This document shows positions 36,036 through 48,546 of a stretch of 64,000 nucleotides of DNA, piece by piece (the stretch's first letter is position 1; the number at the start of each line of letters is the position of its first letter). The position numbers and the translations under genes were made by a program. Location: the NCBI GenBank assembly GCA_012839295.1, contig DUNO01000001.1, forward strand, positions 62,001 through 126,000, written 5' to 3'. This DNA comes from Clostridiales bacterium. GTDB taxonomy: Bacteria; Bacillota; Clostridia; Lachnospirales; Lachnospiraceae. The notes beneath the pieces were generated by a model. It ran no database searches. It worked only from the letters and a program-made list of their open reading frames with translations, and had not been told where the DNA came from.

Positions 36036-37163
36036 TTAATCTGAAAACAATGCTTCATACTCGGCCACACTTAATATGCGTCCTTTGTCTGTCATTTTAA
36101 TGACATCATTTTCAATGATTATATTTCCCTCCTTTAACAGGGCTTTCACAATTTTATCCGTTAAGCCCATATCCCAATGCAAATGGTCTGCCAATGTATG
36201 GACGCCGGCTTCCTGGATTTCCGCTTCACTTCCTTCGTGGTTATATAAATGGAATAGAAGCGTCTTCTTGCTGAAATCTATTTTCTGTCTGCTTCGCCTT
36301 CTCAAAGAACTTATTAATCCTCTGTGAGGAGCTGTTATAAATACGGTTAAGAAAACAAGTCCGGTTATAACTGCCATGCTTCCTGAGATTGAGACATCAA
36401 ATAAAACCGCCAGATAAAATCCCAAAATCCCATTGACAGCACCGATTATTCCACTGAGAACAAGCATATGCTTTAGATTATCTGTCAGCAGATAAGCAGT
36501 AACAGGAGGGCCGATCATAAAAGCAACTACCAATACGGAACCGACTGCCTCAAAAGCTCCTACTGTTGTAACGGAGACAAGCATCATCAGGCTGTAATGG
36601 ATCAGGGAAGGAGAAATTCCGACCACAGCAGCTAACACGGGATCGAAGGTTACTAGTTTCAGCTCTTTAAAAAAGGTTATAATAAAGGCCAGGTTAATGA
36701 TGAGTAAAGCCATTGTACTGTAAATTGCCTTAGCACCAATGTCATAACCGAATAAGACCATACGGTTAAAGGGAACAAAGGCAAGTTCTCCCAGCAGGAC
36801 GGAATCCGTATCCAGATGGACAGAGCCGGCATATTTTGTAATCAATATAATCGCTATGGAGAATAAGAGGGGAAATACAATACCAATGGCAGCATCTTCC
36901 GAAAGCAGCTTTGTACGGTTCATGGTTTCCGTAAGCCATACCGTTGCAAGACCTGTCAGGGCTGCCCCTACAATAAGGAGAGGAGAGGATAAATCATGGG
37001 TCAGGAAAAATGCAAGCACGATTCCCAGCAAAATAGTGTGGGTAATGGAATCGGACATCATGGACATTTTCCTTAAGACCAGAAAAACTCCGGGGAGTGA
37101 GCAGGCTACCGCTACGATTACTGCAACCAACTGGATTTCAAACTGTGGGGACATTTCCATCAC
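36036..37163 (-). CDS. Manganese/iron-type ABC permease with C-terminal winged-helix domain
   Basis: 375 residues. The first about 280 form the ABC-3 permease with about eight helices and the conserved GVFLVLRKMSMMSDSITHTI and VALLVSPAATA-like region (GSVLVVAFMIGPPVTAYLL). After the last helix come about 90 cytoplasmic residues: HLYNHEGSEAEIQEAGVHTL, LADHLHWDMGLTDKIVKALL and IKMTDKGRIL, which look like a DtxR/MarR-type winged helix. This extension is known in TroD/MntD-like permeases of some Firmicutes. It overlaps the preceding permease gene by 26 bases. Confidence 0.88.
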   Translation of the reverse strand: MMEMSPQFEIQLVAVIVAVACSLPGVFLVLRKMSMMSDSITHTILLGIVLAFFLTHDLSSPLLIVGAALTGLATVWLTETMNRTKLLSEDAAIGIVFPLLFSIAIILITKYAGSVHLDTDSVLLGELAFVPFNRMVLFGYDIGAKAIYSTMALLIINLAFIITFFKELKLVTFDPVLAAVVGISPSLIHYSLMMLVSVTTVGAFEAVGSVLVVAFMIGPPVTAYLLTDNLKHMLVLSGIIGAVNGILGFYLAVLFDVSISGSMAVITGLVFLTVFITAPHRGLISSLRRRSRQKIDFSKKTLLFHLYNHEGSEAEIQEAGVHTLADHLHWDMGLTDKIVKALLKEGNIIIENDVIKMTDKGRILSVAEYEALFSD

Positions 37164-38061
37164 CTCCCTGATCTCTTAAAAACAGTTTCAAATTCTTCCG
37201 GTGTATCACTTTTTGTAGGATGCCTCTTCCGGGTGCGAAGAGAACACTGAATATAACAATACCACTGATGAAAACTACGATGGCCGGCCCGGTAGGCAGC
37301 TTTGCCATAAGGGAGCTTGCCGCCGTACCGAAGATTCCGGATATTGCTCCAAAGAGGGCAGAAAGTACAACCATAACCCAAAACCTATTGGTCCATTGCC
37401 TTGCTGCAACGGCCGGTGCAATCAGCATGGCACTCATGAGAATAACACCTACGGTCTGCAAACCCGTAATAATTGCCATAACGATCATGAAAGACAATAA
37501 GAGGTTTAATCTATGTGCCGGGAAACCAAGGCTTTTTGCATACTCATCATCAAAGATATAGAGCTTAAATTCCTTCCAGAATAACAGGATAAAAACAAGC
37601 AGTATGACACCGCAGATTACCATAAAATAGACATCCCTTTGCAGCAGAGTAGATGCCTGCCCAAAGATAAAACGTTTTAAGCCTGCCTGATTGGAATTAG
37701 GTATTTTCTGTACATAGGTTAAAAGCACCAGCCCCAGGCCGAAGAATACTGACATTACCAGGGCCAGGGCGCTGTCAAATTTGATCCGGGTATGCTTTAC
37801 GATGTTGATTATGAAATAAGTGGCGATTAACCCGGAAATCAATGCACCAAGCAGAAGGATCTCCGTATCCTTGGAACCGGTCAGTATAAATGCCATAACA
37901 ACACCGGGCAATGCCGCATGGGATACGCCGTCCCCTAATAAGCTTTGTTTACGCAGCACCGCAAAGCTTCCTAAAACTCCGCTGATTAAGCCCAGAATAG
38001 CGGAACCTAACGCCACTGTTTGAAAGGTATAGTCCTTGAACAGATAAATAAGTGCTTCCAT
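37138..38061 (-). CDS. Manganese/iron-type ABC permease
   Basis: 307 residues with eight or so transmembrane helices of the ABC-3 family. The conserved cytoplasmic loop is AVLRKQSLLGDGVSHAALPG and the later GVILMSAMLIAPAVAAR. It forms a heterodimeric channel with the permease encoded downstream. AAGGGGG precedes the ATG. Together with the ATPase and binding lipoprotein it makes a TroABCD/MntABCD-type importer for Mn2+, Fe2+ or Zn2+. The neighbouring DtxR-family regulator favours manganese or iron. Confidence 0.9.
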   Translation of the reverse strand: MEALIYLFKDYTFQTVALGSAILGLISGVLGSFAVLRKQSLLGDGVSHAALPGVVMAFILTGSKDTEILLLGALISGLIATYFIINIVKHTRIKFDSALALVMSVFFGLGLVLLTYVQKIPNSNQAGLKRFIFGQASTLLQRDVYFMVICGVILLVFILLFWKEFKLYIFDDEYAKSLGFPAHRLNLLLSFMIVMAIITGLQTVGVILMSAMLIAPAVAARQWTNRFWVMVVLSALFGAISGIFGTAASSLMAKLPTGPAIVVFISGIVIFSVLFAPGRGILQKVIHRKNLKLFLRDQGGDGNVPTV

Positions 38062-38076
38062 GAAAACACCCCCTTC

Positions 38077-38835
38077 CTAAACCGCACTTTTTAATAAATT
38101 ACCTGTGCTGCGGTATGCCTTTTTCAGGTTTTGCTCATGAAAAACCTCTTCTACGGGACCGCTGGCAATTACCTTGATATTAATCAGGGTAACCCAGTCA
38201 AAATAATCAGGCACTGTCTGCAAATCATGGTGTACAACCACTACGGTCTTACCGGATTCCTTTAACTCCTTTAACAATACAACAATTGCCTTTTCCGTCT
38301 GGATGTCAACGCCCTTAAAGGGTTCATCCATAAAATAAATATCAGCTGTCTGCATTAAGGCTCTTGCCAAAAAGACTCTTTGCTGCTGGCCGCCGGATAA
38401 CTGGCTGATCTGCCGGCCGGCATATTCTGTCATGCCAACCTTTTGTAAGCATTCCATAGCAGCCTCCTTATCCTTTTTGCCTGGGCGCTTAATGAGGCCC
38501 AGCCTTCCGTAGCAGCCCATAAGCACGATGTCCAGCACAGTTGCGGGGAAATCCCAATCCACACTTCCGCTTTGGGGAACGTAAGCAACTTTATTCTTTA
38601 ACTTCCGAAGGCTGTTGTCCGTTTCATGAAAAAAACGGACAGTTCCCGAAACTGGGACTAAAAGTCCAAGCATGGCTTTCAGCAAGGTAGTCTTGCCGGC
38701 CCCGTTAGGTCCTATGACTGCCATTAGCTTACCCTGCGGGATATCTAAATCAATATCCCACAGTACAGGCTTTGCATCATAAGCAACGGTTAGATCCTCA
38801 ATTTGAACGGCGTAATTTGATTCATATAATTCCAT
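38077..38835 (-). CDS. Metal ABC importer ATP-binding protein (MntB/TroB-like)
   Basis: 252 residues. Walker A GPNGAGKTT, signature [14 protein letters not shown], Walker B IYFMDEPFKGVD and switch His in VVHHDL. The FMDEPFKGVD form is characteristic of the Mn/Zn/Fe chelate importers. AGGAGGTG lies ahead of the ATG at optimal spacing. It hydrolyses ATP at the cytoplasmic face to drive the two permeases. Confidence 0.93.
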   Translation of the reverse strand: MELYESNYAVQIEDLTVAYDAKPVLWDIDLDIPQGKLMAVIGPNGAGKTTLLKAMLGLLVPVSGTVRFFHETDNSLRKLKNKVAYVPQSGSVDWDFPATVLDIVLMGCYGRLGLIKRPGKKDKEAAMECLQKVGMTEYAGRQISQLSGGQQQRVFLARALMQTADIYFMDEPFKGVDIQTEKAIVVLLKELKESGKTVVVVHHDLQTVPDYFDWVTLINIKVIASGPVEEVFHEQNLKKAYRSTGNLLKSAV

Positions 38836-38863
38836 ACAAACACCTCCTTTTTCTGGAGAACAA

Positions 38864-39796
38864 TTATTTTAAAGCTCCAACAATTGTATCGATATTGGAT
38901 TTCACGGTCAGAATGTAAGTCCCGGCACCGGAATCCGCCCCACCCAGGGAATCAGAGTAAAGCTCTCCGCCGATGCTTACCTGAAAACCCTTTGCCTTTA
39001 CGGCCGCCTGCAAAGCCTCTATGGTTTTGGGCGGCACGGAGGATTCAACGAAAATAGCCTTTATTTTGCGTTCCGTAATAAAATCAGCCAGGTTGCTTAC
39101 ATCAGCAGTGCCGGCCTCCGCATCGGTGCTGATGCCCTGCAAGCCCCTTACTTCAAAGCCGTAGGCTCTGCCGAAATAGTTAAAGGCATCATGTGCTGTA
39201 ATTAAAACCCGCTGTTCCTGGGGAACCTCTGAAACTTTATCCTTGATGTATGTATCCAAAGCGTCTAACTCAGTCAGGTATGCCTTAAGATTATTGGCAT
39301 AATCCGTTGAATGCGCAGAATCTGCTTCCGATAATTTATCGGCCACGAGCTGGGCAGCATCTTTCCAAAGGGAAACATCAAACCAGATATGAGGGTCATG
39401 TGTGGAGGAATCGCCCTCCCAGGATAATAAATCTTCCTCATTCAGCCCTTCCTCGATGCATATAACGGTGCTCCCCCGGTCTGTGAGAGATTCAAAAATT
39501 TCTCCCATTTTACCCTCCAGATGCAGACCGTTGTACACTACGACGTCAGCTTCCTGCATCAGTGTAACATCTCCGGCACTTGCCTGGTAAAGATGGGGAT
39601 CAATACCCGGGCCCATGAGACCGTTCACCGTAACATGCCCACCGCCTATGACCTTTGACAGGTCGGCCAGCATGGTAGTAGTTGCCACAAGGTTTAAGGT
39701 ATCCTTTTCCTTTGTTTGTTCTGCCCTTTGGCATCCCGTTAATGCTAAGGCTGCAATAAGAATCAGGCTAAAAAAGATTTTAAAATTTCGACTCAT
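38864..39796 (-). CDS. Metal-binding lipoprotein of the ABC importer (cluster A-I)
   Basis: 310 residues. Signal peptide with lipobox ALTGC (Cys about 21). The family metal ligands are in place: His in DPHLYQ near 67, His in DPHIWF near 133, His in TAHDAFNYFG near 200 and Asp near 280 in a SIGGELYSDSLG stretch. These PsaA/TroA/ZnuA proteins capture Mn2+ or Zn2+ outside the membrane. There is no His-rich loop between the first two ligands, which speaks for manganese rather than zinc. It is the first transporter gene after the regulator. Confidence 0.92.
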   Translation of the reverse strand: MSRNFKIFFSLILIAALALTGCQRAEQTKEKDTLNLVATTTMLADLSKVIGGGHVTVNGLMGPGIDPHLYQASAGDVTLMQEADVVVYNGLHLEGKMGEIFESLTDRGSTVICIEEGLNEEDLLSWEGDSSTHDPHIWFDVSLWKDAAQLVADKLSEADSAHSTDYANNLKAYLTELDALDTYIKDKVSEVPQEQRVLITAHDAFNYFGRAYGFEVRGLQGISTDAEAGTADVSNLADFITERKIKAIFVESSVPPKTIEALQAAVKAKGFQVSIGGELYSDSLGGADSGAGTYILTVKSNIDTIVGALK

Positions 39797-39835
39797 AAAT
39801 AGTCCTCCATTCTTTTAAAAATTAAAGTTATAAGG

Positions 39836-40486
39836 TCATTTGGGTTCAGATACAAAAATCTGACAGGCAGCCTTGTAACTGATCTGAATTGTTTTTTCTT
39901 CCAGGGCCAGTGTAAAGGGACCTTCGTAGTCACCAACGCTGGTAACGGTGAACTGGGTGCCGATTTCGATTCCCTGGTTTTGCAGATAGTCCAGAAACTT
40001 TTTTTCTTCCAGAACTTTTTTTATTTTAGAGGTATCACCTGTTTTCAGATCGGCTAGAAGCATTAAGGTATCTTCGTTTGTTTGTCCGTCTGATTTCGGT
40101 ATTACACTGCCGTGGGGACAGTATTCCGGGTAGTTTAAGAAACGGTCAAGCCGGTCTGTAAGCCTGGAGGGGGATATGTGCTCTAATAGCTCTGCATCTT
40201 CGTGTGCTTCACTCCAGGTATATCCCAGGTGCCTGATAAGAAACACTTCCCATAGACGATGCCCGCGTAATAGTGAAATAGCAATCCTTAGTCCGTCCGG
40301 TGTGAGCTGGGAGCCTTTATAGGGTTCAATGACCAGCAGCCCTTCCTGGCTTAATTTGTTCAACATTTCAGAGACAGATGCCGGGGCTACCTCTAAGACC
40401 TGGGACATTTGTTTATTGCTGACCAGGTGATCCAAACCACCCAGTTTATACAGTTCTTTTAAATAATCTTCTTTGTTTGGTGTCAT
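39836..40486 (-). CDS. DtxR/MntR-family metal-dependent repressor
   Basis: 216 residues: an N-terminal winged helix (KEDYLKELYKLGG, NKQMSQVLEVAPASVSEMLN), the metal-binding dimerisation domain (GHRLWEVFLIRHLGYTWSEA followed by HEDAELLEHISP and the CPHG motif) and a C-terminal FeoA/SH3-like domain. It is the long type, as in IdeR and TroR. With Mn2+ or Fe2+ bound it should shut off the importer operon, of which it is the first gene. The dyad at 40503 overlaps its own transcript start. Confidence 0.92.
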   Translation of the reverse strand: MTPNKEDYLKELYKLGGLDHLVSNKQMSQVLEVAPASVSEMLNKLSQEGLLVIEPYKGSQLTPDGLRIAISLLRGHRLWEVFLIRHLGYTWSEAHEDAELLEHISPSRLTDRLDRFLNYPEYCPHGSVIPKSDGQTNEDTLMLLADLKTGDTSKIKKVLEEKKFLDYLQNQGIEIGTQFTVTSVGDYEGPFTLALEEKTIQISYKAACQIFVSEPK

Positions 40487-40556: not shown

Positions 40557-41050
40557 TGATTATTATTATCATTTAAAAAATATTGTAAAACCGCAGCAGT
40601 TCCATAATTAGCCGACACTAAAAAAGTTTCACTAGACTAAATATATTAACTAAATAAAAAAATGTTACTGAAAGACATTGATAAATTATAATACAGATTC
40701 CCATTGGCCGTAAGGGTATTGGCTACGCTTCCGGATAATGAAGCAAATTGGATATTTTGTGCTGTAATACTTCACATAATTCTACCCTTTGGAAACTTGG
40801 CGCTTTGATATTAATTGAATGTAAGAACCGGAAAAAGAAAGCTGCGACAGGGTCAGAGCAAAACCATAACAAGAACGAGCTGATTTACTGTTTATGGGAT
40901 TGGTTATAAAGCCAGGGGCGGGGGGGATTAGGCGATAGAAGAAAGGAGCCTGACCTTGACAAAAAACAAAGTTGGATATAATATGAAACCAACCCGCAAA
41001 TTCAAACATGTCAGAGCGTTGGAAAACGGATCAAAGGTTAGGAGGCAGTG
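40557..41050. other. Intergenic region between divergent metal regulators
   Basis: About 490 AT-rich bases without a supported gene. The promoter of the Fur-family gene lies near the right end: TTGACA (40956-40961) with TATAAT (40977-40982) or the overlapping TAATAT, giving a 15- or 17-base spacer. The middle part (40600-40940) shows no convincing structure. Confidence 0.55.
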
Positions 41051-41467
41051 ATGCAGAGAATATATAGAACCAAGAGCAGGGAACGGATGTTGCAGTTTTT
41101 CCAAAATCATAAGGAAAAGATGGTCAGTGCCTCTGAAATACATGATTTTTTACAGGAAAAGGATGATAAAGTTAATCTTGCAACCATTTATCGGAACCTG
41201 GATAAGATGACGGAAGACGGTGTTTTAATTAAATACAAGGACAGCCAGGAAGATAAGGCAGTTTACCAATATGTGGGTGAGGATGAGAAGTGCCATGAGC
41301 ATTTGCATATGCAATGCATGAAATGCGGAAAAGTAATTCACCTGGAATGTAATTTTATGAAGGAGATATCGGAACATTTATTAGTACATCATCGGTTTAC
41401 ACTGCAATGTACAAAATCCATTCTGTACGGCATGTGTGGAGAATGTAGGGAAGAAGCGGCAGGATGA
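41051..41467 (+). CDS. Fur-family metal-responsive regulator
   Basis: About 138 residues from the ATG at 41051 (GGAGG seven bases upstream). The winged helix reads VSASEIHDFLQEKDDKVNLA and TIYRNLDKMTEDGVLIKY. The dimerisation part holds CHEHLHMQCMKCGKVIHLEC and a final CGEC, i.e. the structural zinc site CxxC...CxxC and the His-rich regulatory site. Length and motifs fit Zur or Fur rather than PerR. It points towards the zinc cluster and may share control of it with the second Fur-family gene at 45216. Confidence 0.88.
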   Translation: MQRIYRTKSRERMLQFFQNHKEKMVSASEIHDFLQEKDDKVNLATIYRNLDKMTEDGVLIKYKDSQEDKAVYQYVGEDEKCHEHLHMQCMKCGKVIHLECNFMKEISEHLLVHHRFTLQCTKSILYGMCGECREEAAG

Positions 41468-41569: not shown

Positions 41570-42466
41570 TTAATAAAATGGATAGATATAACCCTCCACT
41601 TCTTTTGTAGGTGTGATTTTTGCCACAGAGATCTGGGGGTCATCGTATTTTTCACCATCATATTCATATTGTCCAATAAAGATGGTACCTTCGATTGTCA
41701 CCCAGGAACCGGCTTCTAATGCGGAAGCTTTATCATATTTACAGATTAACCCGGCAGGTGATAGATCAGCAGCACAGCATGACATCATAAGGCGGGCTAA
41801 TACAAATTCATCCTTTTGGAGTGATTCAGAATCATTAAAAATGTATCCCGTCATAATAATGGTATATCCGTTATACTCTTCTATGTTATCATATAGTACG
41901 GTAAGCCACATGCTGAAATTATCATTTGATACGGTAATTTTCTTATTCGCCGTATCAAGACCGGGCAGATTGGTTGTATACCCGTCTTCCTCTTCCAATA
42001 TACCGGTTTGTGTGTCGGAAAGAGAGGGGTCTATGGAGTCCATTGCTGCTGAATCCGAGGAAGAAAAATCATTCTCGGAATAAGAGGAGGAATCATCCGT
42101 AGGTCCGGTGATACTTTCCGCAGGAGCCACGTTTGGAACGCTGGATAAAGTATTCCCGCTGACATAATTGCCGGAAAGGTCGGAAATGCTCAGAGGGCTA
42201 TGGGGAAACGACAGTAATAAAATAGGGATCGCCAGTACATAGCAATGGGAAGAACGTATTTTGTATTGCGGGCGAAACAGCCTGCCAAGACCTGCTAAAG
42301 CCCAGATGCCCATGACGATCACTGTAAAATAAAGATAGGGTTCCATCCTGGGAGTGACATAGGAAAGATATTTTCCGCTTTTCACCAGATAAAGTATCAA
42401 TCCGCCAAACACGCAGTAGCAAAGAAACTCTAAAAAAACCTGAGGATTAAATGCTTTTGCCTGCAT
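41570..42466 (-). CDS. TIGR03943/DUF1980 family membrane protein (YcgQ-like)
   Basis: 298 residues. Three N-terminal transmembrane helices (about 8-28, 38-60, 72-90) are followed by an acidic Ser-rich linker and a C-terminal domain with the conserved FVLARLMMSCCAADLSPAGL segment. This CC-containing motif and the fold are typical of TIGR03943/COG3689 proteins, which regularly stand beside COG0701 permeases. Here such a permease is encoded just upstream. The pair is thought to move or handle a metal or small ligand; its true role is unsettled. Last gene of the minus-strand zinc unit. Confidence 0.88.
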   Translation of the reverse strand: MQAKAFNPQVFLEFLCYCVFGGLILYLVKSGKYLSYVTPRMEPYLYFTVIVMGIWALAGLGRLFRPQYKIRSSHCYVLAIPILLLSFPHSPLSISDLSGNYVSGNTLSSVPNVAPAESITGPTDDSSSYSENDFSSSDSAAMDSIDPSLSDTQTGILEEEDGYTTNLPGLDTANKKITVSNDNFSMWLTVLYDNIEEYNGYTIIMTGYIFNDSESLQKDEFVLARLMMSCCAADLSPAGLICKYDKASALEAGSWVTIEGTIFIGQYEYDGEKYDDPQISVAKITPTKEVEGYIYPFY

Positions 42467-42468
42467 AG

Positions 42469-44046
42469 TTATATTCCTCCTACTAACGGTAAATAAAAAA
42501 CTAAGGCAAAGCAGACAATAAATGTCACAATTAACAGCCTGCCAATAAATCGTTTTGAAAATCCGGAAGAGAGCATCATCACGTTTTTAATATCCATCAT
42601 CGGGCCAAACACCAAAAACCCCATAATTGCACTGGTGGGAAACTGTTTGGCTAAGCTTCGGGCAATCACGGCATCGGAGGAGGAGCAGAGGGAAAGAACA
42701 AAGGCCATCACCATCATAATCAAAATGGATACCACCAGTCCGGCACCGTCCTGGGCAGTTGTAAATATCTTGGTTCCAAAAAACTGAAAGATAGAAGCAA
42801 TGAATGTTCCTATCACCAAATATTTTCCGACATTAAAAAATTCTGCTTGGGAATGTCGTAAGAACAGACCCACTTTTCCTTTGAAGGTAGTGACTGATTC
42901 GGCAGCTTCATAACAGCCGCAGCTGCACATAAGCCTGTCGAGTACTCCCCCGGATAGTACCTGACCCTTCGGAGGCCAGGTTGCAACAGTAAGTCCGATG
43001 ATCAGGGAGGCTATGATTCCATAGCATACGCGCCCGGCCACGATCCTCATATTGCCGCCAAAAGCGTAATAAGTTGATAAAATGACTACCGGATTGATTA
43101 CCGGAGTAGCCGTCATAAAGGTAACAGCTACGGGAAGGGGAATCCCTTTCTTAACCAGACTCCTGAAGATGGGAATGGATGCACAGTCGCATACCGGAAG
43201 GCAGAAGCCACCGATAATTGCCACAAGCATCCCCGCCCCAAGAGATTTTGGGAACCGCCGTTCAATAGCACTTTGTGGAATAAAGACCTGAATGGCAGAG
43301 GAAAGCAATATACCGACCAGTAAAAACGGAATGGCCTGCAGGATGATCCCCAAAAATACATTGGTAAATGCGTTGACCGGGATTTGGAAATCCTCTAAAA
43401 CCGGTGCGGCAATAAAATACAGTGCAGCAAGCATACTTACCAATAGGAAAAAAAAGCTGACAGGGCGATCCCTCTCCTCGAGAAGCCGTTGGCATAGATC
43501 GTCGTAGTCTTTTATCTGATAGATATTAACGCCGGGGTTTATGCCTCTTATCAGGTGCCGAATTCGCTTGAAGATTTTTGCCGAAGCTATACCTCGTACA
43601 ACCACGAAATCACTGCTGGCAATCTGTTCAGGCAAGGCGGCACCCGTCCTGCCCAGCAGATTTTCTATGTTTGCAGCGTCCGCAAGATGTATTACTTTTT
43701 TTATTTTACACAGGGTGCGCAGTGAAGAATCTAAAAGCAATGACTGAAGCTGGGAAAATGGAATGACTCCATTCCATTCGATCCAGAGTTCATCAAGCTT
43801 ATGATTTTGCAGGATGCTTCGAATCTGTTCGATAACCAGTTTCGGCTGCTGTTCCAATACTTTTTTCGGAAAAGCAAGGTTATGGCAGTTGCTGTACTGG
43901 CTTTGAAATTCCTCTTCTCCGGCTTCGAACTGTATAACGAGTATACGGACATCCTTCCAGTCGCGCCTGTTCAGAAGGATATTCAGTAAGGAGGTTTTTC
44001 CGGCATCCAGAAATCCGGTGACAACATAAACGGGCAATGTGTTCAT
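42469..44046 (-). CDS. Fusion of COG0523-like GTPase domain and COG0701 permease
   Basis: About 525 residues from the ATG at 44046, two bases after the GTPase stop. Residues 1-190 resemble a CobW/COG0523 (G3E) GTPase: Walker A GFLDAGKTS at 11-19 and the strand order of the family. The metal motif CxCC is absent (one Cys in SNCHNL) and the NKxD base-recognition motif is replaced by VVRG. Residues about 195-525 form a COG0701/DUF318 permease with about eight helices, the signature CLPVCDCASIPIFRSL, and CSCGCYEA in a cytoplasmic loop. The fusion couples a degenerate metallochaperone domain to a membrane pore. A role in zinc handling follows from its neighbours only. Confidence 0.85.
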   Translation of the reverse strand: MNTLPVYVVTGFLDAGKTSLLNILLNRRDWKDVRILVIQFEAGEEEFQSQYSNCHNLAFPKKVLEQQPKLVIEQIRSILQNHKLDELWIEWNGVIPFSQLQSLLLDSSLRTLCKIKKVIHLADAANIENLLGRTGAALPEQIASSDFVVVRGIASAKIFKRIRHLIRGINPGVNIYQIKDYDDLCQRLLEERDRPVSFFFLLVSMLAALYFIAAPVLEDFQIPVNAFTNVFLGIILQAIPFLLVGILLSSAIQVFIPQSAIERRFPKSLGAGMLVAIIGGFCLPVCDCASIPIFRSLVKKGIPLPVAVTFMTATPVINPVVILSTYYAFGGNMRIVAGRVCYGIIASLIIGLTVATWPPKGQVLSGGVLDRLMCSCGCYEAAESVTTFKGKVGLFLRHSQAEFFNVGKYLVIGTFIASIFQFFGTKIFTTAQDGAGLVVSILIMMVMAFVLSLCSSSDAVIARSLAKQFPTSAIMGFLVFGPMMDIKNVMMLSSGFSKRFIGRLLIVTFIVCFALVFYLPLVGGI

Positions 44047-44047
44047 A

Positions 44048-45172
44048 TCATTCACCGCCAAAAAGGGCGCAAAGCTCCCGACGGTTCAAATTCTGGCCTA
44101 TGATACAAAGCATATCGCCGACGGCTGCACATTTTGTAATCTGAATATCTCCAGGGAGATATTGCAGATTGATATATCCGGTTGTGCTGCGAACGATACC
44201 TTTGGCGCGTAGAACCGTTCCTCCTGCATTTTGCTCCATAGCCGATACCCGTGCTTTCAAATCCTCTGTACTGAATATTTGCTTTGTCCTTATAGTAACA
44301 GTATCGAAAACATCTTCGGCCGAATGAGAATGTCCACAATTGTCATGATGAGAATGTCCACAATTGCCGTGATGAGTATGCTCGCAATTGTCATGATGTT
44401 TATGCTCGCAATTACTGTGGTGAGAATGGTCACAATTGTCATGGTGGGAATGGTCACAATCGCCATGGTGAGTATGCTCACAGCTGTTATGGTGAGTGTG
44501 CCCGTAATTGCCATTGGTGTATGTATCCTGCTTCCTATATCCTAAACTGCTCCCATGGCTGGGCTCTGTATGTAGATTGTAATTATATACTGGGTGGAAG
44601 AACTCTGCCATATTGATTTGATCCCAAGGTTTTGAAACAATGGCAGAGTGAGGGTTCAGACTTCTTATCAGCTTCTGGGCGGAGCTCACCTTGTCGGGGA
44701 AATGCCCGGTATGGCTGAGCAGGATAATATCGGCGTTTTTAATCTGATCTTCAAAGAAGTCACCGAAATTCTCCAGATACATCTTGCAGCGTTTCACGTC
44801 CGCCACCGTTATTTTTAACTTTACTTCAGCCAAAGCCTTGATGCGTGGGTCTGAACAAGATTTTACAATATCTGAAAGCTTGCCCACACCAGAGGGTTCA
44901 ATAATAATTTTATCCGGATGGAAACGGTCCAGAACCTCTTTGAGGGCTTTGACAAAATCACCCGAAAGGCTGCAGCAGATACACCCGGAATTTATCTCCT
45001 TTACTTCAACGCTGCCTGATTTAAGCAAGGCAGCATCCACACTTATTTCTCCAAAGTCGTTTTCAATGAGGATGACTTTTTCTTTAGCAAAAGCTTCTTT
45101 CAGCAGCTTTTGGATCAGCGTGGTTTTCCCCGCCCCCAAAAAGCCGGATATTACATATATTTCTGTTGTCAT
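44048..45172 (-). CDS. COG0523 (G3E) GTPase metallochaperone with His-Cys repeats
   Basis: 374 residues. Walker A GFLGAGKTT at 10-18, the metal site GCICC near residue 66, Walker B-like EPSGVG and the CobW C-terminal domain (VLRAKGIVRSTTGYINLQYL). Between the two domains, residues 224-284, are seven octapeptides of the form xHxHHxxC and a partial eighth, an obvious metal-binding tract. Such proteins deliver zinc to client enzymes at GTP cost when zinc is scarce. The gene follows the Fur-family gene and precedes the GTPase-permease fusion; all three look co-transcribed. Confidence 0.92.
   Translation of the reverse strand: MTTEIYVISGFLGAGKTTLIQKLLKEAFAKEKVILIENDFGEISVDAALLKSGSVEVKEINSGCICCSLSGDFVKALKEVLDRFHPDKIIIEPSGVGKLSDIVKSCSDPRIKALAEVKLKITVADVKRCKMYLENFGDFFEDQIKNADIILLSHTGHFPDKVSSAQKLIRSLNPHSAIVSKPWDQINMAEFFHPVYNYNLHTEPSHGSSLGYRKQDTYTNGNYGHTHHNSCEHTHHGDCDHSHHDNCDHSHHSNCEHKHHDNCEHTHHGNCGHSHHDNCGHSHSAEDVFDTVTIRTKQIFSTEDLKARVSAMEQNAGGTVLRAKGIVRSTTGYINLQYLPGDIQITKCAAVGDMLCIIGQNLNRRELCALFGGE
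44321..44503 (-). repeat. 24-bp tandem repeat coding for His-Cys octapeptides
   Basis: The tract is 61 codons: seven units of 8 residues and five residues of an eighth. Units read, for example, EHTHHGDC, DHSHHDNC, DHSHHSNC, EHKHHDNC. Copies differ mainly at silent and first-residue positions. It offers three His and one Cys per unit. Confidence 0.92.
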
Positions 45173-45215: not shown

Positions 45216-45638
45216 TCAGTGTGATTTACAGTCCTTGCAAAAACCGAAGATCTCCAGATTATGCCCCATTACATAAAAATCCTCGTCCTCCAGTTTCGGT
45301 ATGAATTTCTCCATCGGACAATTATCCATTGTTAGGATTTTGTGGCAATTTATGCATACAGCATAATGTTTATGCTTAAAACGGTTAAGCTCATATACTG
45401 CCATATCACTATTCATAATATTAGTTTTAAGCACAATGCCTTTTTTTAAAAAAAGCTCTAGGATACGGTAGACCGTAGACAGCCACGCTGTATCACCACT
45501 TTTTCCCATTTTGGAGCATATGTCCATTGCGCTTAAGGGTTTCTCAGCTTCTTCAAGAATTGAGAGTACACTTTCACGCTGTTTTGTTCTTTTGATTCCT
45601 GTTGGCCAGTTATTCTGTATCTCTGTCAATGTATTCAC
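45216..45638 (-). CDS. Fur-family regulator, probably the zinc repressor Zur
   Basis: 140 residues. The winged helix has LSAMDICSKMGKSGDTAWLSTV and YRILELFLKKGIV. The C-terminal half has HKHYAVCINCHKILTMDNCP and FCKDCK, the structural CxxC pairs of Zur-like proteins, with His residues of the sensing site. It heads a minus-strand unit with the zinc-type GTPase, the fusion permease and the TIGR03943 protein. Zn-bound dimers should repress that unit and the znu genes through the related operators at 45780 and 47433-47511. Confidence 0.88.
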   Translation of the reverse strand: MNTLTEIQNNWPTGIKRTKQRESVLSILEEAEKPLSAMDICSKMGKSGDTAWLSTVYRILELFLKKGIVLKTNIMNSDMAVYELNRFKHKHYAVCINCHKILTMDNCPMEKFIPKLEDEDFYVMGHNLEIFGFCKDCKSH

Positions 45639-45779: not shown

Positions 45780-45835
45780 AAATGCATATTATTCGCATCT
45801 TGTCTCATTATAGAATATCAATATTAAGAAGTCAA
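45780..45835 (-). promoter_or_regulatory. zur-type promoter with Zur-like operator
   Basis: On the minus strand TTGACT (45830-45835) and TATAAT (45807-45812) have a 17-base spacer. Just after the -10 comes the site AAATGCATATTATTCGCAT (45780-45798, plus-strand reading). It agrees closely with the reversed site at 47434-47452 in the znu intergenic region. Confidence 0.72.
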
Positions 45836-45899: not shown

Positions 45900-46727
45900 T
45901 TACCTGCTTCGGATGCTGCGAAGGCTTGACAGCAGCTTTTTAGCGATCAGGACAATGATAAGGATGGCGACAGAAATAAGGGCAGTAAAGCCTCCCGGAG
46001 CAACATTGAGATAATAGGAAAGAAACAAACCCAGCAGGATGTCTATTACACTGAAAACGATGGAAAAGATTAAGGTAAGCTTAAAGCCTTTCCCAAGCTG
46101 CAGTGCCGTGGCCACGGGAAGGGCAATCATGGAACTAAGAACGAGTACGCCTACAATTCTTATGGATACGGATATGGCTGCGGACACAAGAATAGAAAAA
46201 ATATAGTTGATCAGCCTGACTCTTACACCTGCTATTTTAGCAGTCTCTTCATCGTAAGCGATATAAATCATCTGGTGGTATAAAAGAATAAGGGTCAATA
46301 CGGAGATCAGGCTGAGGATCAATACCATCACCATATCGAACCGGGTTACGGTCAGGATACTGCCGAACATGAAGGAATCGGCATTTGCATGAAGCTTCCC
46401 GGAGCTTATGATGGTAATTGCGGTGCCCACGCTTAGGGAAAGCACAATAGTAAGAATCAAATCAGTGTATTTTTTGAAATAGCCGCGAAGGAATTCAATC
46501 AGTGCACCGCAAATGGACGTAAAGAGAAAAGCGCCAAGTATGGGATTCTGATTTGTCATCAGTCCGATAGTAATTCCGGCCAGCGAAGCATGGGACAGTG
46601 TATCACCTATCATGGAATAGCGGCGGAGCACTAAAAATATGCCGATACAGGGGCATAGAATAGAAATGAAAATAGAGACAAAAATTGCATTTTGCATAAA
46701 GCCGTAACTAAGCATGGGTATTATCAA
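45900..46727 (-). CDS. znuB: Zinc ABC importer permease (ZnuB-like)
   Basis: 275 residues with about eight helices of the ABC-3 family; the cytoplasmic loop is FLVLRRYSMIGDTLSHASLAG and the later segment VGVLVLSSMIALPVATAL. It overlaps the ATPase gene by 20 bases, so the two are made together. The zinc assignment rests on the divergent lipoprotein gene with its His-rich loop and the shared Zur-like operators. Confidence 0.88.
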   Translation of the reverse strand: MIIPMLSYGFMQNAIFVSIFISILCPCIGIFLVLRRYSMIGDTLSHASLAGITIGLMTNQNPILGAFLFTSICGALIEFLRGYFKKYTDLILTIVLSLSVGTAITIISSGKLHANADSFMFGSILTVTRFDMVMVLILSLISVLTLILLYHQMIYIAYDEETAKIAGVRVRLINYIFSILVSAAISVSIRIVGVLVLSSMIALPVATALQLGKGFKLTLIFSIVFSVIDILLGLFLSYYLNVAPGGFTALISVAILIIVLIAKKLLSSLRSIRSR

Positions 46728-47388
46728 CCTTTCCTTTCATGTTCAAGAATTCATCGGCATACTGCCTGGGAGTACACAGGTGTCCCTGTCCGTCCGTCAA
46801 ATGATAAATTAATGTTGAATTTGAGATGGCGGCATCCAGGTTGTGCTCAACAGAAACAATGGTGATACCGTTTTCTTTGTTTATTTTCTTTAAGAAACCA
46901 TAAATTTCTTTTTGGCTTCTTATATCCACTCCTGTTGAGGGCTCATCCAGAATTAACAAATCGGGGTTTCCCATCAAAGCCCTCGCAATCAATATTTTCT
47001 GGCTTTGTCCGCCGGACAGGTTGCCCATCAGCGCACCTGTAAAGTCAGACATTCCAACCTGCCCAAGCTTTTCCATAAGCATATTTTTATCTTTGAGCTT
47101 CAATAGTCTTCGGTAAGAGTTCAGCATTTCATAGACCGTAATGGGAAAATTAGAGTTGGAGAAGTCATTTTTTTGCGGAACATATCCGATTCTTTGCACC
47201 TGAGTTATGATGTTTCCCCTTGTGGGCTTTATGAATTTTAATATTAACCGCATAAGTGTGCTTTTTCCGCTGCCATTTTCGCCTACGACCGATATATACT
47301 CGCCGCCGCCTATTTCCAGATTGATGCCGTTAAGTACATAGGGCGGTGAGCCTGTGTAGGAAAAATATAAATTTTCTGCTTTAATCAT
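46708..47388 (-). CDS. znuC: Zinc ABC importer ATP-binding protein (ZnuC-like)
   Basis: 226 residues. Walker A GENGSGKST, Q-loop in GYVPQKNDFSNSNFP, signature LSGGQSQKILIARA, Walker B LLILDEPSTGVD and switch His in VSVEHNLD. This is the short ATPase of the metal chelate importer group. The gene starts 147 bases from the divergent znuA and is led by AAAGGATG. It powers import of zinc through the ZnuB-like permease. Confidence 0.9.
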   Translation of the reverse strand: MIKAENLYFSYTGSPPYVLNGINLEIGGGEYISVVGENGSGKSTLMRLILKFIKPTRGNIITQVQRIGYVPQKNDFSNSNFPITVYEMLNSYRRLLKLKDKNMLMEKLGQVGMSDFTGALMGNLSGGQSQKILIARALMGNPDLLILDEPSTGVDIRSQKEIYGFLKKINKENGITIVSVEHNLDAAISNSTLIYHLTDGQGHLCTPRQYADEFLNMKGKVDNTHA

Positions 47389-47432: not shown

Positions 47433-47511
47433 ATTGCAAATGATATGCATTTTCACTTGACAAAAAGATTTTTACAAATTATTATATTAATGCAAATAGG
47501 AAACATTTGCA
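47433..47511. promoter_or_regulatory. Divergent znu promoter region with two Zur-like operators
   Basis: Operator A at 47434-47452 reads TTGCAAATGATATGCATTT. Operator B at 47491-47511 is the perfect dyad TGCAAAT-N7-ATTTGCA. The znuA promoter between them has TTGACA (47457-47462) and TATTAT (47480-47485) 17 bases apart, so operator B covers its transcript start. Operator A is close to the znuC side. Both share the core TGCAAAT with the site at the zur gene. Confidence 0.75.
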
Positions 47512-47535: not shown

Positions 47536-48546
47536 ATGATGAAGAAATGGATCACAATACTATTATGCCTGATGGTTGCGGTAAGCTTATCAGCCTGCAG
47601 TAATAAAAATCAGGAGACTAAGACGGATGAAAGCAGTACACCGGGTAATAGTACGGATCAGACAAGCGGGCCGGAAGAAAGTCCGGTTAAGGTTTCCGTA
47701 ACCTTTGATGCGATGAAGGAATTTGTTGCGGCGGTCGGAAAGGATAAAGTAGAAATATCGACAATCATACCTGACGGAATGGAAGCTCATGATTTTGAGC
47801 CGAAAGCCCAGGATCTTGCGGCTCTCAGCACAGCCAGAATTTTTGTATACAGCGGTCTGGGTATGGAAGCCTGGGCAGAGGAGGCCATAGAGGCTGCCGG
47901 TAATGCGGAGCTGATTATCGTGGAGGCCTCTAAAGGGGCAGATATTATTGAAAGGAAGGAAACTGAGGAAAGCGGGGAGCATGAGGAAGAGCATGAAGGA
48001 GATGAAGAGCATGAGGAAGGCGAAGCGCATGGGCATGGAAAATATGATCCTCACATCTGGCTTGGCCTAAAGAGTGCACAGGTTGAAGTAGAAAACATCA
48101 AGAATGCGCTTGTACAGGCTGATCCATCCAATAAGGACTATTATGAAGCAAACTGCAGTGGTTTTGTTTCACAGCTGGAGAGCCTTTATAATGAATATAA
48201 TGAGAAATTCCAGTCCGTAGAGAGAAAGAACTTTGTAACGGGACATGCCGCTTTTGGATATCTTTGCAGGGATTTTGGCCTGGAGCAAAACAGCGTAAAG
48301 GATATCTTTGCAGAAGGCGAGCCAAGTGCACAGCAATTAGCTGAGCTGGTAGAATACTGTAAGGAAAATAAAGTAACTACAATTTTTGCTGAGGAAATGG
48401 CAAGTCCGGAGGTTTCCCAGACCTTGGCCAATGAAGTTGGTGCAAAGGTAGAAACAATCTACACGATAGAAAGCAGTGAGGATGGTATGACCTATCTGGA
48501 AAGGATGACAGACAATCTGTCAAAGATCTATGATAGTTTAAAATAA
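47536..48546 (+). CDS. znuA: Zinc-binding lipoprotein of the ABC importer (ZnuA-like)
   Basis: 336 residues. The signal peptide ends in LSLSAC (lipobox Cys about 21). Ligands typical of zinc cluster A-I proteins are seen: His in EAHDFEPKAQD, His in KYDPHIWLG, His in VTGHAAFGYL and Glu/Asp near the C-terminus. Between the first two lies an acidic, His-rich loop (EHEEEHEGDEEHEEGEAHGH), the mark of zinc rather than manganese binders. It is transcribed alone, divergent from znuCB. GGGAGG precedes the ATG. Confidence 0.93.
   Translation: MMKKWITILLCLMVAVSLSACSNKNQETKTDESSTPGNSTDQTSGPEESPVKVSVTFDAMKEFVAAVGKDKVEISTIIPDGMEAHDFEPKAQDLAALSTARIFVYSGLGMEAWAEEAIEAAGNAELIIVEASKGADIIERKETEESGEHEEEHEGDEEHEEGEAHGHGKYDPHIWLGLKSAQVEVENIKNALVQADPSNKDYYEANCSGFVSQLESLYNEYNEKFQSVERKNFVTGHAAFGYLCRDFGLEQNSVKDIFAEGEPSAQQLAELVEYCKENKVTTIFAEEMASPEVSQTLANEVGAKVETIYTIESSEDGMTYLERMTDNLSKIYDSLK

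Follow-up and report, generated by a model that had tools for sequence, protein, structure and literature searches.

The window, by which we mean the whole 64 kb stretch of DNA analysed, derives from an assembly of 6.36 Mb in 82 contigs and carries a gene cluster laid out as znuA / znuC-znuB, fur, G1, fusion and TIGR03943. The elements of this cluster are as follows.

41570..42466, minus strand: TIGR03943 family membrane partner with DUF1980_N and DUF1980_C (NCBIfam, 131.8 bits, above the cut-off of 88.8)
41579..41980, minus strand: DUF1980_C domain, OB-fold-like, with invariant R..M.CC..D (Pfam, 2.6e-35; alignment of 35)
42469..44046, minus strand: fusion protein of 525 aa, G3E (CobW-like) domain plus ArsP_1 (COG0701) permease
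44048..45172, minus strand: G1, COG0523-type metallochaperone GTPase with CxCC and a His-rich HHxxC repeat (cobW 9.5e-41, CobW_C 7.7e-6)
45216..45638, minus strand: Fur-family regulator, candidate Zur (Pfam FUR 3.4e-21; below the NCBIfam Zur cut-offs)
45900..46727, minus strand: ZnuB-type ABC permease (ABC-3 1.5e-59; best NCBIfam match AztB, below cut-off)
46708..47388, minus strand: ZnuC-type ABC ATPase (ABC_tran 1.6e-26; best NCBIfam match AztA, below cut-off)
47536..48546, plus strand: ZnuA-type substrate-binding lipoprotein with a His/Glu-rich stretch (ZnuA 1.2e-78)

The first-pass annotation of this DNA had placed a stand-alone GTPase with a metal-binding repeat and a TIGR03943 protein beside the fusion, and the CxCC and HHxxC repeat of G1 and the NCBIfam score of the downstream protein agree with that description. 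Other metal-related genes lie nearby. A second Fur-family gene on the opposite strand (41048-41467) adjoins the TIGR03943 gene, so that either Fur protein is a candidate Zur, and a second ABC metal importer (permease, ATPase and ZnuA-type binding protein; 37138-40486), presumably for manganese, is found a few kb from the zinc cluster together with a DtxR/MntR-type regulator ending in FeoA.

Domain composition of the fusion protein

The protein is a genuine one-frame fusion of a CobW-like domain with an ArsP_1 permease, as first proposed. The frame opens with an ATG at 44046 (a TTG at 44061 also opens it) and contains no internal stop codon. Within it, Pfam matches cobW (PF02492) at residues 5-154 (E 1e-11, 45.2 bits against a cut-off of 20.7) and ArsP_1 (PF03773) at residues 225-515 (E 6.6e-59, 199.9 bits, profile positions 3-288 of 294). 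A profile built from 56 sequences matched E. coli YjiA at E ~4e-13 over residues 3-179, and the predicted structure, confident in both parts (mean pLDDT 89.8, pTM 0.80), places a nucleotide-binding fold at residues 4-180 ahead of a helical permease, with YjiA as its best PDB match (Foldseek, E ~5e-6). The first-pass annotation had named two ways in which its reading might fail, the lack of a significant CobW match and a sequencing error that removed a stop codon between two ordinary genes. Chance resemblance to CobW is ruled out by the Pfam PF02492, YjiA profile and Foldseek YjiA matches, and sequencing error by full-length homologues in many genomes (8 loci in seven other genomes of the family and 78 of the 80 best named loci). 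Pfam found CobW_C (PF07683) in G1 and, at E up to 10, none in the fusion, and the permease half had no PDB match by sequence and none among the 50 Foldseek matches listed. The features of the fusion discussed below are:

43510..44034, minus strand: G3E-like nucleotide-binding domain, residues 5-179 (Pfam cobW, YjiA profile match, Foldseek YjiA)
43993..44016, minus strand: Walker A GFLDAGKT, residues 11-18 (79/79 fusions)
43768..43779, minus strand: G3-type motif EWNG, residues 90-93, replacing EPSG of G1 (motif counts)
42502..43374, minus strand: ArsP_1 permease domain, residues 225-515, two mutually similar halves (Pfam, hhalign)
43183..43197, minus strand: PVCDC motif, residues 284-288 (invariant in 79)
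42913..42927, minus strand: CSCGC, residues 374-378, in a loop predicted to be cytoplasmic (charge pattern)
42670..42687, minus strand: CSSSDA motif, residues 454-459, second-half counterpart of PVCDC (outside the scan pattern)

Motifs were counted in 79 fusions (the window and 78 named loci) and in 73 G1 partners, leaving out of the scoring three G1 rows with no P-loop in the stretch. Walker A (GxxxxGK[ST]), annotated as kept, is present in all 79 fusions. The motif scan found neither CxCC nor the guanine-specificity pattern [NTS]KxD in any of the 79, in keeping with the loss of both described at first pass, but loss of NKxD is not peculiar to the fusion, since the pattern is also missing in 66 of the 73 CxCC-bearing G1 proteins (present in 7). 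ExNG occurs in 77/79 fusions against 0/73 G1, which carry EPSG in 67 cases and CxCC in every one. Fusion and COG0523/CobW metallochaperones (YciC, YjiA, ZigA, ZNG1) have the G3E fold and Walker A in common, whereas CxCC and CobW_C are found in G1 next door and the fused domain has neither and is joined to a pore; on the CxCC counts, we class G1, and not the fused domain, as the candidate COG0523 metallochaperone. Residues G11, G16, K17, T18, E41, G43, E90 and N92 of the fused domain are each invariant in the 79 fusions, which argues for a working nucleotide site, and the missing guanine-specificity motif leaves room for a nucleotide other than GTP, or for one that is not hydrolysed. Judging from these motifs, labour would so be divided, with the metal site kept by G1 and the nucleotide site by the fused domain. 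The N-terminal domain could instead be no more than a docking platform that binds nucleotide constitutively or never and recruits G1 to the permease. The absence of CxCC and [NTS]KxD fits such a role and the eight invariant residues speak against it; we consider it quite unlikely.

The fused domain is not a copy of the adjacent G1, given that the tree has G1 on one side (99/92) and the fusions, the short forms and the stand-alone relatives on the other. In the window, G1 has a long and regular HHxxC repeat (region 44231-44545), whose length differs among the G1 proteins of related loci. A CobW-related selenoprotein family, NF041053, was dropped as a lead after 0 of 196 genomes scored above its cut-off, the weak matches being generic CobW proteins.

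The two halves of the permease align with each other (hhalign P 8.6e-5, probability 60%, reversed control 0.056), pairing PVCDC with CSSSDA. Of the two cysteine signatures annotated at first pass, CxPVCDC and CSCGC, the PVCDC of the former is present in all 79 fusions, a count that, like that of GPMMDIK, is in part circular because the scan used two permease motifs; the latter is less general, with CxCG in 53/79 fusions. H398, C454, S455, S457 and D458 are conserved in 79/79. Charge counts put the N-terminal domain, the 255-270 loop and the CSCGC loop on the same side of the membrane, and we take this side to be the cytoplasm; in the model the N-terminal domain precedes the first helix, and the helix flanks fit a cytoplasmic side.

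Conservation, gene neighbourhood and operator-like sites

Within the family of the source organism, 37 of 299 genomes match at 1e-10 (the window's own, 7 with full-length and 29 with N-domain-only matches), the 7 carrying full-length fusions at 8 loci with 28-69% identity for a prevalence of 8/299 including the window's own, and in the class at least 18 of 391 genomes, again including it, have a near-full-span match, at 19 loci; with three candidates scored per genome, family and class counts are lower bounds. Beyond these 18, frame reading revealed a divergent fusion of 596 aa, in which the linker is longer and ExNG is present (L151 724-2514, genome G322). Named genomes were scanned with two permease motifs and the best 80 of 455 relatives retained, so that the presence of the fusion ORF in 78 of these 80 loci is not a prevalence; the other two, L074 (cut by the contig) and L078, were left out. 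The best 80 include Alkalibaculum, Desulfosporosinus, Mobilisporobacter, Tissierella, Faecalicatena, Lacrimispora and Hungatella, as well as metagenome-assembled genomes bearing the bin labels Synergistaceae and Anaerolineaceae.

Comparison of gene neighbourhoods, which the first-pass annotation had suggested as a check, reveals a conserved operon. Directly downstream of the fusion lies a TIGR03943 gene in 74/78 loci (contig end in 2, another gene in 2), and directly upstream a CxCC-type G1 in 69/78, the remaining nine upstream neighbours being contig ends (2), DtxR type (2), ZnuB (2), Fur (1), ZnuC (1) and unlabelled (1). The distance from G1 stop to fusion start has a median of 2 bp, with 66 of 68 within 30 bp and 17 overlapping. 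The zinc setting noted at first pass is likewise recovered beyond the znu and fur genes of the window: the stretch covered, which extends more than 6 kb upstream in 61/78 loci, contains ZnuA or ZnuB in 48/78, a Fur-family gene in 35/78, either in 51/78 and none of them in 27/78.

Three Lacrimispora loci have no G1 beside the fusion, and two of them have a DtxR-type regulator before it. One of the three (L079 7006-10408) has fusion and TIGR03943 right after the regulator, adjoining a divergent pair that reads as feoAB, and is perhaps a paralogue for another metal, with near relatives in L083 and L084. Four further loci (L065, L105, L106 and L115) contain an extra COG0523 paralogue downstream of TIGR03943, three of which group with a different COG0523 branch.

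The DtxR-type regulator and feoAB-like pair of L079 are what would be expected if, at least in some lineages, the cargo were iron, manganese, cobalt or a metal-ligand complex. Against this, most placed neighbours are of ZnuA/ZnuB and Fur type, and the ZnuA of the window has a His-rich stretch, so that we regard a cargo other than zinc as very unlikely.

Two operator-like palindromes, found by pattern scan and assigned to no strand, lie in promoter regions of the window's cluster:

45783..45797: site upstream of fur, differing from TGCAAATNATTTGCA at 2 positions
47435..47449: site between znuC and znuA, differing from TGCAAATNATTTGCA at 1 position

These are the two best sites in the 64 kb, a result that is no test of the palindrome, as the pattern was read from them. 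Among the 78 related loci, TGCAAATNATTTGCA at up to 2 mismatches gives 14 sites upstream of cluster genes (17,260 bp), compared with 4 in other intergenic DNA (103,593 bp) and 15 in ORFs (1,031,359 bp), and 0 of 200 permuted palindromes reached 14 cluster-upstream sites (best 3); some loci are closely related, so that these counts do not amount to 78 independent cases. At up to 3 mismatches, 24/78 loci have a site and 54/78 have none. The palindrome is thus enriched upstream of related clusters, and constitutes a candidate operator of a Fur-family protein (putative Zur).

Split and stand-alone relatives of the fusion

The modules of the fusion also occur apart. Five loci, in five genomes of one genus-level group, encode in a row G1, a CobW-like protein of 209-218 aa and an ArsP_1 permease of 302-334 aa, followed in 3/5 by TIGR03943. 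Of the 29 genomes that match in the N-domain only, 22 yielded loci, and in 22/22 the stand-alone P-loop protein (311-345 aa) ends in DUF1980_C. This was detected with a profile built solely on TIGR03943 proteins (E below 1e-4); Pfam agreed in 2/2 tested, and NCBIfam in one, just under cut-off. R..M.CC..D is common to both kinds of DUF1980_C. A CxCC G1 gene adjoins the stand-alone protein in 19/22 loci within the stretch covered, and no permease, ZnuA, ZnuB or Fur was found nearby in 16 wider contexts. The five split loci and the 22 domain-DUF1980_C proteins constitute independent links between the same modules.

This stand-alone pair (L015-L036 and L171-L186), a CxCC G1, often His-rich, with a CobW-like protein ending in DUF1980_C, is widespread and apparently represents an undescribed cytoplasmic version of the fusion system. 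In a domain tree of thinned rows, rooted on G1 and two further COG0523 proteins, a single clade (99/92) unites the stand-alone proteins with the fusions and the short forms; within it, the stand-alone proteins form one group (97/92) that sits with the five fusions of L042, L043, L044, L169 and L170 (99/97). The bootstrap of this tree stopped short of settled (0.984, with 0.99 wanted); in 0 of its 200 trees do the fusions form a single group, the stand-alone proteins nesting among them. A DUF1980_C tree, likewise of thinned rows and leaving out 2/16 stand-alone proteins that lack the CC..D pattern, joins stand-alone proteins to the TIGR03943 proteins of the five-fusion loci (94 SH-aLRT; L042 absent owing to a contig end), and the G1 neighbours of stand-alone proteins fall with the G1 of L042 (91/85). 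Given the gene order domain-permease, membrane anchor-DUF1980_C, loss of the middle stretch would yield the stand-alone form.

The predicted structure of DUF1980_C is OB-like, with Foldseek PDB matches mostly to the OB folds of single-stranded-DNA-binding proteins; by sequence, the TIGR03943 protein had no match in the PDB below E 0.2. TIGR03943 proteins have three hydrophobic segments, the third strong in 34/35, and their K+R content is higher in loop 2 (4.37) than in loop 1 (1.54), followed by an acidic linker. These charges favour a DUF1980_C that is probably outside, a placement hard to square with the stand-alone proteins, whose DUF1980_C must lie inside the cell.

An outward-facing DUF1980_C, with its invariant R, M, CC and D, would suit a delivery port in which zinc goes from G1 to the fusion and on outwards to DUF1980_C, to metallate exported zinc enzymes in starvation. 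Zinc export would be costly for a starved cell, however, and the stand-alone proteins, which have no membrane segment recognised in Pfam terms, join DUF1980_C to a soluble domain, so that it can work inside the cell. We judge such a port improbable.

A candidate zinc transporter of starvation

FeoB combines in one chain an N-terminal GTPase domain and a polytopic metal permease with conserved Cys, and has small metal-handling operon partners. The fusion resembles FeoB in these points, a likeness of architecture only: the fusion has a G3E/CobW-type domain, an ArsP_1 permease and a zinc gene setting, and Pfam at E up to 10 found no FeoB_N or Gate domain in it. By its domains, it is therefore not a FeoB, and at most it may work like one.

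The reading that we favour, tentatively and at somewhat less than an even chance, is that the fusion is a nucleotide-regulated zinc transporter of starvation, with its own G3E-type domain as regulator and G1 as the protein with which it exchanges metal. Its metal, direction and nucleotide are what we infer; in architecture it is FeoB-like, assembled from unrelated parts. In a zinc-starved cell, the Fur-family repressor would come off its promoters, and derepression would yield the ABC zinc importer together with G1 (the CxCC metallochaperone), the fusion and TIGR03943. The ArsP_1 half and its TIGR03943 partner would carry zinc, or a thiol-bound zinc form, past the Cys/Asp site across the membrane, presumably inwards. 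The G3E domain, having no metal site of its own, may, depending on its nucleotide state, gate the pore or dock G1. The chaperone G1 would take the metal, possibly handed over by the fusion, on its CxCC and His-rich segment and deliver it to clients.

We count for the zinc-starvation reading the conserved operon partners, the palindrome, the split of CxCC and Walker A between G1 and fusion, the split and stand-alone relatives that link the modules and the modelled position of the N-terminal domain, and we favour import because of the setting among zinc-uptake genes and the shared promoter sites. Counted against it are the 27 loci with no ZnuA, ZnuB or Fur, the 54 with no palindrome and the Lacrimispora loci with no G1.

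The opposite direction is suggested by the nearest named families. The methylarsenite exporter ArsP belongs to ArsP_1, and the best NCBIfam matches of the fusion are efflux proteins of the same superfamily, SO_0444 Cu/Zn efflux (NF033936; 2.2e-15) and SaoE (2.8e-15), whose presumed direction, like that of ArsP, is opposite to that proposed for the fusion. An exporter would expel a toxic soft metal or a thiol-metal complex, with the domain coupling export to G1-bound metal, and thereby correct overshoot or mis-metalation. Both efflux scores, at 56.6 and 56.4 bits, lie far below the curated cut-offs of 300 and 325, and both the co-occurrence with ZnuABC genes and the operator-like sites held in common suggest that the fusion is expressed on starvation; we thus hold an exporter to be unlikely. 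Work on Bacillus anthracis bears on both directions: Zur binds upstream of the operon of the ArsP_1 permease BAS1632, numbered next to yciC (BAS1633), and the authors inferred positive, not negative, Zur control (PMC6336718). The binding counts for the zinc-starvation reading; the inferred positive control is in line with export and ill suited to a starvation-induced importer. Together with the exporters among the nearest named families, it makes direction the weakest point of the transporter that we favour.

Permease and TIGR03943 families are shared with the adjacent gene pairs YcgR/YcgQ, ScfA/ScfB and SMU.746/747, of which the available part of the source describes the permeases with no GTPase domain (ScfA, 300 aa, 8 predicted TM) and reports that the pair matters for streptococcal fitness (PMC5584981). 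The fusion itself seems undescribed, as first annotated, and appears widespread in anaerobic bacteria inside zinc-uptake gene clusters: we found no published description in open-licence PubMed Central papers, a scope that leaves subscription reviews of COG0523 outside, and the words fusion, fused and permease are absent from the available text of the 2009 COG0523 survey (PMC2770081). Relative to the first-pass annotation, the case is strengthened by operon conservation, split and re-fused architectures and the shared operator-like palindrome.

A bolder version of the starvation transporter, which we advance as a doubtful possibility, would make this a second, independent GTPase-gated metal transporter, in which the SIMIBI-class G3E-ArsP_1 fusion heterodimerises with its CxCC sister G1 and nucleotide turnover couples passage to hand-over. 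The stand-alone domain-DUF1980_C protein would then be the same machine minus the pore, part of a soluble zinc-transfer pair.

To our knowledge, COG0523 chaperones have no demonstrated metal source so far, and the route by which zinc reaches the right proteins in a starved cell is an open question. A chaperone-family domain built into a permease, with a chaperone next door, would, if true, directly link transport to delivery. The fusion would also offer an initial entry point to the widespread, uncharacterised permease-TIGR03943 pair, and would provide a zinc-side comparison for FeoB.
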